A DNA stretch of 52,792 nucleotides from positions 1-52,792 of the forward strand of contig CAIOTT010000014.1 in the NCBI GenBank assembly GCA_903861305.1, given 5' to 3'. Origin of the DNA: Candidatus Omnitrophota bacterium (GTDB taxonomy: Bacteria > Omnitrophota > Gorgyraeia > Zapsychrales > Fredricksoniimonadaceae). How positions within the stretch are numbered: the stretch's first letter is position 1; each line of letters begins with the position of its first letter. The notes below the pieces were generated by a model. That model did not search any database. It saw only the letters and a program-made list of their open reading frames with translations, and was not told the DNA's origin. Below, one piece after another: positions 21,589 to 24,323 of this stretch. The translations under genes were made by a program, and so were the position numbers.

Positions 21589-21984
21589 TTAACGCTTGAC
21601 CCACTGGAACTTCCTGCGAGCGCCCTTCTGCCCAGGCTTCTTACGTTCCTTCATGCGCGAGTCACGCCTTAAACAAAGATTCTTTTTAAGGACAGTGCGC
21701 GTGCTCTGGTCGAATAATGTCAACGCCCTGGAAACAGCCATCCTGAGCGCACCGGCCTGTCCGGTAAGCCCGCCGCCTACGGTGTTAACGTCCATATCAA
21801 ACTTGTTAAGAAAATTTGTCAGTTTGAAGGGCGAGAGGATGATGATGCGGTCAGTCTCTCTGGGAAAATAATTCTCGAACGCACGACCATTGACAGTTAT
21901 CCTGCCAGCGCCCGGCGTGATAATAACACGCGCCACGGATGTTTTACGGCGACCTGTAGCTGCATATTTGACGACTTCGACCAT
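21589..21984 (-). CDS. rpsI: 30S ribosomal protein S9 (uS9)
   Basis: The 131-residue protein starts ATGRRKTSVARVIITPGAG and has the internal GGGLTGQAGALRMAVSRAL region. It ends in the S9 tail KKPGQKGARRKFQWVKR, whose last basic residues reach the ribosomal P site; the normal terminal SKR is VKR here. It follows rplM by 20 bases with GAGGAG as ribosome site, in the usual L13-S9 order. Confidence 0.98.
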   Translation of the reverse strand: MVEVVKYAATGRRKTSVARVIITPGAGRITVNGRAFENYFPRETDRIIILSPFKLTNFLNKFDMDVNTVGGGLTGQAGALRMAVSRALTLFDQSTRTVLKKNLCLRRDSRMKERKKPGQKGARRKFQWVKR

Positions 21985-22004
21985 TGTTCGTACTCCTCTG
22001 GAAA

Positions 22005-22442
22005 TTAAATGTCTAACGGAACAGGTTTCTGTGCTTTATGCGGATGATCCGGGCCCGCATAAACATAAAGATGCGTTTTAACGCGCTCGCCTAGCTTCCC
22101 CTTGGGGATCATGCGCCCAATAGCAAGTTCAAGGACCTTGTGCGGATATTTAATGATCATATCCGAGAACCTGACACTTTTTAGCCCGGAATGGAACCCC
22201 GAGTAACGGTCATAAAACTTATCATTGGCCTTCTTGCCGGTAACACGGATCTTCTCCGCATTGATGATGATGACGCAATCACCCGTATCCATAAAGGGTG
22301 TGAACGTCGGCTTGTTCTTGCCGCGGAGGATGGTCGCAACCTTAGCGGCCAAACGCCCGAGAACTTTCCCGTCGGCATTGACAAGGTAATACTTCTTTTC
22401 GATCTGATCTACTTTGGGTAATGTGGTTTTCTGTACGGCCAT
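22005..22442 (-). CDS. rplM: 50S ribosomal protein L13 (uL13)
   Basis: The 145-residue product contains YYLVNADGKVLGRLAAKVATIL, the FTPFMDTGDCVIIINAEKI stretch, KFYDRYSGFHSG and the C-terminal HLYVYAGPDHPHKAQKP, all characteristic of uL13. I start at the ATG at 22442; a TTG two codons upstream is in frame but has no advantage. A strong promoter lies 46-73 bases upstream, and rpsI follows. Confidence 0.98.
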   Translation of the reverse strand: MAVQKTTLPKVDQIEKKYYLVNADGKVLGRLAAKVATILRGKNKPTFTPFMDTGDCVIIINAEKIRVTGKKANDKFYDRYSGFHSGLKSVRFSDMIIKYPHKVLELAIGRMIPKGKLGERVKTHLYVYAGPDHPHKAQKPVPLDI

Positions 22443-22545: not shown

Positions 22546-23289
22546 CTAATACTTAACCTGTTCCAGGCAAAGCCCCTGCGCCACCGCCGCCAGACCGGCA
22601 GCCCTGCGGTCACGGTCCTTGAGCATCTTTTTGACGCTGCCCGGAGGAAACCTGCCTGAAGCCACATCCAGGAGGGTCCCCACCATATTGCGCACCATTT
22701 TATATAGAAATCCGTCGGCTTCCACGACGATACGGATCATGTCGCCGGACCTCACGACCTGGAAGCGCTTGATCGTTCTCACGGTGCCGCAGGTCCGTGA
22801 ACGGTCAACATTCGCGAAAGAAGAAAAGTCTTTCTTGCCGACAAAAGCCCGGGCCTCCGCCCGCATCAGGCGGATATCGAGCTTGCGCGGAAAATAACAG
22901 CAGCGGTGTCGCTCAAGCGCCGAAGCATATGGACGATTAAGGATGGCATAGGAATAAATTTTAGACCTGGCGCTGAGCTGGGCATGGAACTTATCCGGGA
23001 CCAGCCTGGCATCAACCACAACCACATCGCGGGGAATGTTGTGATTGAGCGCACGCATGAGCTCATCCGGCGGCATATCCGTAGCAACGCGAAAATGAGC
23101 CACCTGCCCCCTGGCGTGGACACCGCTGTCCGTGCGCCCTGACCCGATGCAGGGGATCCTGTCTTTCTTGAATATCTTTGAAAGAGCTTTTTCAAGCTCA
23201 CCCTGGACCGTACGCCGGGCATTGGCCTGCATCTGCCAGCCGTTAAAGTCAGTCCCGTCGTACTCAAGGGTCAGCTTGAAAGTCTTCAG
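22546..23289 (-). CDS. truA: tRNA pseudouridine synthase A with a non-canonical start codon
   Basis: TruA isomerises uridines 38-40 in tRNA anticodon stems. The catalytic aspartate is in GSGRTDSGVHARGQ (Asp54 with the start used here), followed by ARSKIYSYAI, FSSFANVD and the C-terminal FLYKMVRNMVGTLLDVASG. The first ATG in frame (23232) would remove the conserved TLEYDGTDFNGWQ motif, which is clearly encoded upstream. Between that motif and an in-frame TGA at 23308-23310 there is no ATG, GTG or TTG. A CTG at 23287-23289 has GAGGA seven bases upstream and gives a normal 247-residue protein; ATT at 23290-23292 is the alternative. A single-base sequencing error restoring an upstream ATG cannot be excluded. 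Confidence 0.9.
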   Translation of the reverse strand: MKTFKLTLEYDGTDFNGWQMQANARRTVQGELEKALSKIFKKDRIPCIGSGRTDSGVHARGQVAHFRVATDMPPDELMRALNHNIPRDVVVVDARLVPDKFHAQLSARSKIYSYAILNRPYASALERHRCCYFPRKLDIRLMRAEARAFVGKKDFSSFANVDRSRTCGTVRTIKRFQVVRSGDMIRIVVEADGFLYKMVRNMVGTLLDVASGRFPPGSVKKMLKDRDRRAAGLAAVAQGLCLEQVKY

Positions 23290-23327
23290 AATAATTTCCT
23301 CATCAACTCAAACAGCACGGCAAATCC

Positions 23328-24311
23328 CTAGAGAAGCTTGTACTTGATCAGCGTCTCCGCGATCTGGACGGCATTGAGGGCGGCGCCCTTGCGGAGATTG
23401 TCGGAAACAACCCACATATTGATGCCGTTGGGAACGGACTCATCTTCGCGGATACGGCCAACAAAGGTCTCGTCCTTGCCATCCGCGTCAATGGGCATGG
23501 GATACTTCTTGCGCGCCGGATCGTCAACCACCTTCACGCCCGGAGCCTTGGACAAAAGCCTGATGACATCGGCGCGGGTCAGCTTCGTTCTGGTCTCAAC
23601 GTTGACAGACTCGGAATGGGCATTGAAAACAGGGACACGCACGCAAGTAGCCGTGACCTGGATCCTGGCATCATGAAGGATCTTGCGCGTTTCGTTGACC
23701 ATTTTCATTTCTTCCTTCGTGTAATGGTTCTCAACGAAAACGTCGATCTGCGGGATCAGGCTGTGAAGTATCTGGTATGCCAGCTTTTTGGGTGCCATAT
23801 CCCCTTTCAACTGGTTCTTCATTTCCTCGATAGCCTCGGAACCGGCTCCCGAGATAGCCTGATAGGTCGACACCACAATACGCTTGATCTTCGCGCGGTC
23901 ATGCAAAGGTTTCAGGGCGACCACCATCTGTATCGTCGAACAGTTGGGGTTAGCGATAATGCCCTTGTGCCATTTCACATCTTCGGGATTCACCTCGGGA
24001 ACAACGAGCGGGACATCCTTGTCCATGCGGAACTGGCTCGTGTTATCGATGACAACAGCACCGGCCCTTGCCGCCACCGGCGACCAGACCTTGCTGATCT
24101 CAGCACCCGGGGAACTGAGGACAACATCCACGCCCTTGAAAACATTTTCATCGAGCGGCAACAGCGGCAAGCCATGCATCTTTCCCTTGGCGCCGCTGGG
24201 TGAAATCAGCCTGAGCTCCTTGACGGGAAATTTGCGTTCCTTGACAATATCATACATGCACTGGCCGACCGCAGAACGGGCGCCCAGGATAGCAACAACA
24301 TACTTTTTCAT
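23328..24311 (-). CDS. asd: Aspartate-semialdehyde dehydrogenase
   Basis: Asd makes aspartate semialdehyde, the branch point to lysine, diaminopimelate, threonine and methionine. The 327-residue protein has the ILGARSAVGQ nucleotide loop at the N-terminus (usual form GATGAVG), the catalytic cysteine in NPNCSTIQMV, and QAISGAGSEAIEEMKNQ. The ATG at 24311 is preferred over an in-frame GTG at 24320 because AAGGAG then has proper spacing. It sits 12 bases after leuB, away from the dap cluster it feeds. Confidence 0.96.
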   Translation of the reverse strand: MKKYVVAILGARSAVGQCMYDIVKERKFPVKELRLISPSGAKGKMHGLPLLPLDENVFKGVDVVLSSPGAEISKVWSPVAARAGAVVIDNTSQFRMDKDVPLVVPEVNPEDVKWHKGIIANPNCSTIQMVVALKPLHDRAKIKRIVVSTYQAISGAGSEAIEEMKNQLKGDMAPKKLAYQILHSLIPQIDVFVENHYTKEEMKMVNETRKILHDARIQVTATCVRVPVFNAHSESVNVETRTKLTRADVIRLLSKAPGVKVVDDPARKKYPMPIDADGKDETFVGRIREDESVPNGINMWVVSDNLRKGAALNAVQIAETLIKYKLL

Positions 24312-24323
24312 AATAACCACTCC

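Follow-up and report, generated by a model that had tools for sequence, protein, structure and literature searches.

A CTG codon at the homologous start position of truA in a Candidatus Omnitrophota genome: apparently a rare one-off of a known kind

Introduction

Among the bacterial genes described to start outside ATG, GTG and TTG, infC, which encodes IF3, begins with AUU or AUC and is autoregulated by IF3, and sigR of Streptomyces begins with GTC, with repression by IF3 shown and regulatory elements highly conserved across Streptomyces (both as presented in PMC5472188). Starts at CUG are rare; the reconstruction of Belinky et al. 2017 (PMC5622118) lists a single UUG-to-CUG switch among 2,468 ancestral UUG starts and, as cited in PMC11497404, CUG makes up 0.024% of bacterial start codons and yields 0.86% of AUG-level expression, E. 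coli CUG starts being placed below 1% of AUG by the same source. The initiation machinery itself may also depart from the norm: Mycoplasma pneumoniae has an initiator tRNA with an AU/GC/GU anticodon stem, accompanied by compensating changes in rRNA, uS9, uS13 and IF3 (Ayyub et al. 2018, per PMC10568206), and both pair 29-41 and the uS9 tail are located at the P-site contact (PMC7005279).

Here, we followed up an original prediction, made by a model from the letters of the DNA alone, that truA (tRNA pseudouridine(38-40) synthase) of a Candidatus Omnitrophota bacterium starts at a CTG or ATT codon, possibly as a regulatory device of the infC kind. The gene lies in a 52,792-nt stretch of contig CAIOTT010000014.1 (hereafter, the window), part of a metagenome-assembled genome (MAG) of 74 contigs.

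Results

The truA frame and its start codon candidates

The identity of the gene as TruA is solid as judged from profile and structure alignments: the protein read from CTG matches the TIGR00071 profile with 199.5 bits (cut-off, 142.85) over residues 3-242, i.e., as a full-length TruA, and solved TruA structures, which we take from their entry codes to be those of E. coli and Thermus, align with it from residue 5 on. Upstream lies the gene for aspartate-semialdehyde dehydrogenase, presumably asd, with 38 nt between its TAG and the CTG (11 nt in the nearest relative, G004), and ribosomal protein genes follow downstream, of which rpsI was confirmed (Table 1). The gene is the sole truA match within this genome and hence probably needed, although the assembly is 68% complete.

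After the TGA at 23310-23308 (minus strand) the frame opens with GTT GAT GAG GAA ATT ATT CTG AAG ACT TTC AAG and, as predicted, holds no ATG, GTG or TTG before the conserved TruA motif, the first canonical codon being the ATG at 23232. Gene callers restricted to ATG, GTG and TTG would thus pick 23232 and lose the motif, again as foreseen, and with it 14 residues (among the first 19) that are invariant across 8 aligned sequences. The predicted GAGGA is likewise in place (23301-23297), seven bases before the CTG at 23289-23287. Its duplex energy is ordinary for the window (-6.3 versus a median of -5.5 over 29 window genes), and shuffled upstream sequences often match this pairing (5th percentile of the shuffled set, -8.6), i.e., it is no better than chance.

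Table 1. Coordinates of the features discussed (plain ranges are window positions; G, C and L are our handles for genomes, contigs and loci)
Feature	Position	Strand	Remark
truA, tRNA pseudouridine(38-40) synthase	22546..23289	-	247 codons + stop, read from CTG
truA stop-to-stop frame	23307..22546	-	reads VDEEIILKTFKLTLEYDGTDFNGWQM...
CTG, proposed truA start codon	23287..23289	-	TTG in G004, ATG in G001, GTG in G002/G022/G028
ATT, alternative non-canonical start	23290..23292	-	one codon 5' of CTG; 4 nt from GAGGA
ATG, first canonical in-frame codon of truA	23230..23232	-	use would remove 19 residues
GAGGA, Shine-Dalgarno-like	23297..23301	-	7 nt before CTG
Possible leader mini-ORF, GTG...TGA (VLFELMRKLF)	23286..23318	-	TGA 23288-23286 overlaps CTG as CTGA; speculative
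asd, aspartate-semialdehyde dehydrogenase, upstream of truA	23328..24323	-	stop TAG 23330-23328
rpsI (uS9), two genes downstream of truA	21589..22035	-	C-terminal tail QWVKR instead of SKR
Initiator tRNA gene, this genome	L218:1501-1577 (G000:C9:12609-12685)		anticodon stem AU/GC/GC instead of GC/GC/GC
infC start region, this genome	L132:1480-1512 (G000:C37)		ATT behind GAGGAG, no canonical start

The CTG occupies the start position of related truA genes

A truA search of 92 genomes (this one and its relatives) gave matches in 78, none of them a second genome of this species, and the start region was read at 76 loci in 75 of these genomes, with G041, G056 and G084 (partial or odd matches) and second fragments in G012 and G032 left out. 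The match in G084 (G084:C4:63692-64003) is a partial, TruA-like one within a frame open over 24,177 codons, which may be one giant ORF or masked sequence. In G030, two contigs (loci L084 and L095) each hold a full-length truA-like gene, reflecting duplication or contamination.

The CTG aligns without gaps with the start codons of G004 (the nearest relative; TruA identity of 89%, TTG at this position), G001, G002, G028 and G022 (Table 1). That is, it sits at the homologous start-codon position, with no canonical codon between the upstream stop and the conserved N-terminus. A canonical codon within -6 to +3 codons of the aligned start is present at 72 of the 76 loci, the nearest one being ATG in 57, GTG in 11 and TTG in 4; of the other four loci, three have an ATG in frame further 5', at a distance of 12-13 codons. 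A canonical option is therefore available at 75 of the 76 loci, and the truA of the window is alone in having none 5' of the motif. Recurrent non-canonical truA starts were considered for L002, L069, L085 and L092, in which the codon at the aligned start, or one beside it, is near-cognate, and rejected; three of them have an in-frame upstream ATG. When 384 genomes from the phylum were scanned with a sequence pattern (the number scanned rather than of truA carriers; the pattern recovers 59 of the 76 known loci), no second TruA with CTG or ATH lacking a canonical alternative emerged: the CTG pattern occurred in three genomes, namely this one, G188 (with an ATG two codons upstream) and G326 (not TruA), and the ATH pattern in six, each of which has a canonical codon further 5' in the same frame.

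Ordinary starts in relatives had been named in advance as evidence against the CTG. Such starts do exist, but at the same position, which confirms the start site while removing the CTG as a conserved feature; hence, the CTG represents either a change in one lineage or a base error. The alignments, in our view, establish both the truA frame and its homologous start position, and the start site of the gene is very probably at the CTG codon.

The N-terminal segment is under purifying selection

Compared with G004, truA of this genome has 11 identical, 7 synonymous and 0 non-synonymous codons over codons 2-19. At codons 9 (GAG/GAA) and 14 (GAC/GAT), the five other relatives compared agree with G004, and these synonymous changes thus occurred on the branch of this genome. 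Although the numbers are small, the pattern indicates that this lineage does translate the N-terminus and, on this codon comparison, demonstrates purifying selection on it between this species and that of G004. It is therefore hardly credible that the protein has lost its N-terminus, whether by starting at the ATG at 23232, as callers restricted to ATG, GTG and TTG would have it, or because the gene is decaying: the loss would remove the 14 invariant residues, including the first stretch that aligns to solved TruA, none of the seven codon changes in the segment is non-synonymous, and the remaining frame is intact. The true N-terminus is at 23289 regardless of whether the codon there is CTG or a misread TTG, and the ATG at 23232 would be a wrong annotation.

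Is the C real?

The alignment with G004 is compatible with the CTG having arisen by a T-to-C change, an inserted C, or insertion of a segment as a whole. A consensus error has to be weighed, with a T at 23289 misread as C or a surplus C introduced; both cases lead back to the TTG of G004. For this, a single substitution (CTG/TTG) or loss of the C (ATTATT-TGAAG versus ATTGTT-TGAAG in G004) suffices, the other 75 truA loci all have a canonical option, and a single base of one MAG (74 contigs, 68% complete) is at stake. On the other hand, genuine CUG starts are documented, though rare (PMC5622118 and PMC11497404), and frame-splitting was absent from the window: when ORFs of at least 150 codons from the relative were compared to it, 70 could be aligned in a single frame for 85% or more of their length, one was partial without a second piece and none was split (a count that includes overlapping spurious frames among the ORFs of the relative), indicating that indel errors are rare. 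We consider such an error unlikely and a genuine C, with ribosomes initiating at the CTG, probable.

A related route is that one additional base brings an upstream ATG into frame. This out-of-frame ATG is located at 23303-23301 (not 23300-23302, as originally given), 14 nt 5' of the CTG, and one added base would indeed place it in frame. However, this route also appears unlikely because G004 starts at the CTG position without an extension and the window genes show no frame-splitting.

Other initiation sites and a possible leader

The prediction had left the choice between CTG and ATT undecided; a non-canonical start stands as the best reading, and ATT is the less likely of the two codons. In favor of ATT, truA of some relatives begins at the preceding codon (in L005, an ATG at -1), and the infC found in this genome offers an ATT behind GAGGAG but no canonical codon, so ATT initiation probably exists in the lineage. 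(This infC is likely to be overlooked or shortened by gene callers.) Against this, the ATT of truA is 4 nt from GAGGA versus 7 for the CTG, and in G004, which begins at the CTG position, the codon at -1 is TGT, which makes a start at 23292-23290 quite improbable.

Dependence of truA expression on a ten-codon leader seems more improbable still. Translation would begin at the GTG at 23318, which is preceded by an SD-like AGGGA (-5.5), and stop at the TGA (23288-23286) overlapping the CTG, followed by reinitiation at the CTG or a -1 frameshift. Nevertheless, the leader is not present in G004, is short enough to be due to chance, and lacks an obvious slippery heptamer on inspection of the sequence.

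An isolated case within the genome

To compare start codons more broadly, 278,885 bases of this genome (the window, further stretches and the infC locus) were matched against 484,893 bases of G004. The approach, which is blind to genes non-canonical in both genomes (e.g., infC), retained 82 gene pairs, passed over 4 that lie at edges and flagged 6 of the 78 tested. Only truA, among the flagged pairs, is conserved over a long block (18 codons, with 7 synonymous and 0 non-synonymous changes); L132:3021, L157:304, window 2872 and window 29250 have no synonymous-dominated block and were rejected, as they look like overlap, antisense or UTR. With one clear case in 78 gene pairs, truA is isolated in these alignments and does not reflect a genome-wide CTG habit. 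The sixth flagged case, a small ORF (L166:625-852, G000:C19; flagged at L166:624), has CTG versus TTG in G004, with 5 synonymous and 1 non-synonymous changes in the 11 codons before its first ATG; it overlaps an opposite-strand ORF and is possibly spurious.

Initiator tRNA, uS9 and IF3 in the lineage

Initiator tRNA genes were matched in 83 of the 92 genomes and stretches from 70 were read, 10 of which were not readable, five of them because of introns. Group I introns are known from initiator tRNA genes of cyanobacteria. All five interrupted genes examined here (L282-L286, from G008, G009, G035, G042 and G027) carry group I introns (Rfam RF00028) near the anticodon, and split matches suggest further introns in G019, G023 and G052.

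Pair 29-41 is A-U (AU/GC/GC) in 57 of the 60 readable genes of the order and class (L217-L286), a share biased towards AU by the first 30 loci being those most similar to the gene of this genome, and the stem is GC/GC/GC in the other three (G083, G084 and G089). That is, the departure from GC/GC/GC by which unconventional initiator tRNAs of the Mycoplasma type are recognized is present here, this genome included. For uS9, 28 of the 111 loci given had a match, in one case incomplete. All 17 complete tails belonging to this genome or to relatives in its order read WVKR (18 rows, as L003 and L032 are duplicates); a further Omnitrophota record (L064) has TKR, and each of the 8 records from other groups has SKR. 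In the FxGRE motif of IF3, the x position is occupied by Q, S, H, K or R.

It is conceivable that a remodelled P site (A29-U41 tRNA, WVKR uS9, altered IF3 FxGRE, and infC without a canonical start) relaxes or rewires start choice, making CUG usable and placing truA under IF3 control, but we regard this as highly doubtful. The initiator tRNA is 100% identical in G001, G004, G006 and G018; the truA search found none in G006, and the other three start truA with ATG, TTG and ATG, respectively. We therefore rejected the changed initiator tRNA as a sufficient cause of the CTG and view it as background.

Discussion

We favor, with a probability of roughly 0.6 for the reading as a whole, that translation of truA starts at the CTG at 23289-23287 and that this base is real in the organism. 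Under this hypothesis, the start site would be ancestral and the codon alone would have been altered, from a canonical one (TTG in G004); the fMet-tRNA would read CUG by a first-position mismatch, aided by the GAGGA seven bases upstream, and initiation would be weak, yet enough for a tRNA-modifying enzyme required in small amounts. Ribosome initiation at the CTG, its low yield and the sufficiency of that yield are what we infer here, and it should be noted that a CUG yield below 1% of AUG may be too little for TruA. In practical terms, the locus represents an annotation trap, as a caller limited to ATG, GTG and TTG would shorten a conserved enzyme by 19 residues, an invariant motif among them.

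How does truA compare with the described systems? Its likeness to mycoplasmas concerns the lineage rather than the gene: pair 29-41 of the initiator tRNA is A-U and the tail of uS9 is changed, although pair 31-39 stays G-C here versus the AU/GC/GU stem reported for M. pneumoniae (PMC10568206). Based on these alignments, the lineage is a plausible second natural case beside mycoplasmas, and its departure in both initiator tRNA and uS9 could be tested as such.

With infC, truA shares a start outside ATG, GTG and TTG behind an SD-like sequence, as does the infC of this genome. The difference is that the non-canonical starts of infC recur across relatives (12 of 21 loci, this genome's included, have no canonical option), whereas the CTG of truA is unique and TruA is no initiation factor. 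Similarly, sigR of Streptomyces, as described in PMC5472188, is an otherwise ordinary gene with a non-canonical start overlooked by gene callers, but its elements are conserved, whereas the non-canonical codon of truA is found at 1 of 76 loci. The suggestion of an infC-like regulatory device was accordingly not borne out: no examined relative shares the CTG start, with TTG, ATG or GTG there elsewhere, and a conserved regulatory switch is not supported by these comparisons.

The closest match is to the rare bacterial CUG starts of PMC5622118, in which a canonical codon likewise gave way to CUG at a homologous position in one lineage, UUG-to-CUG being among the switches recorded there. Compared to that set, truA represents one gene of a single uncultured genome, with no replicate. 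Collectively, the CTG start of truA appears, from the comparisons performed here, to be a rare one-off of a known kind rather than a new genetic device.
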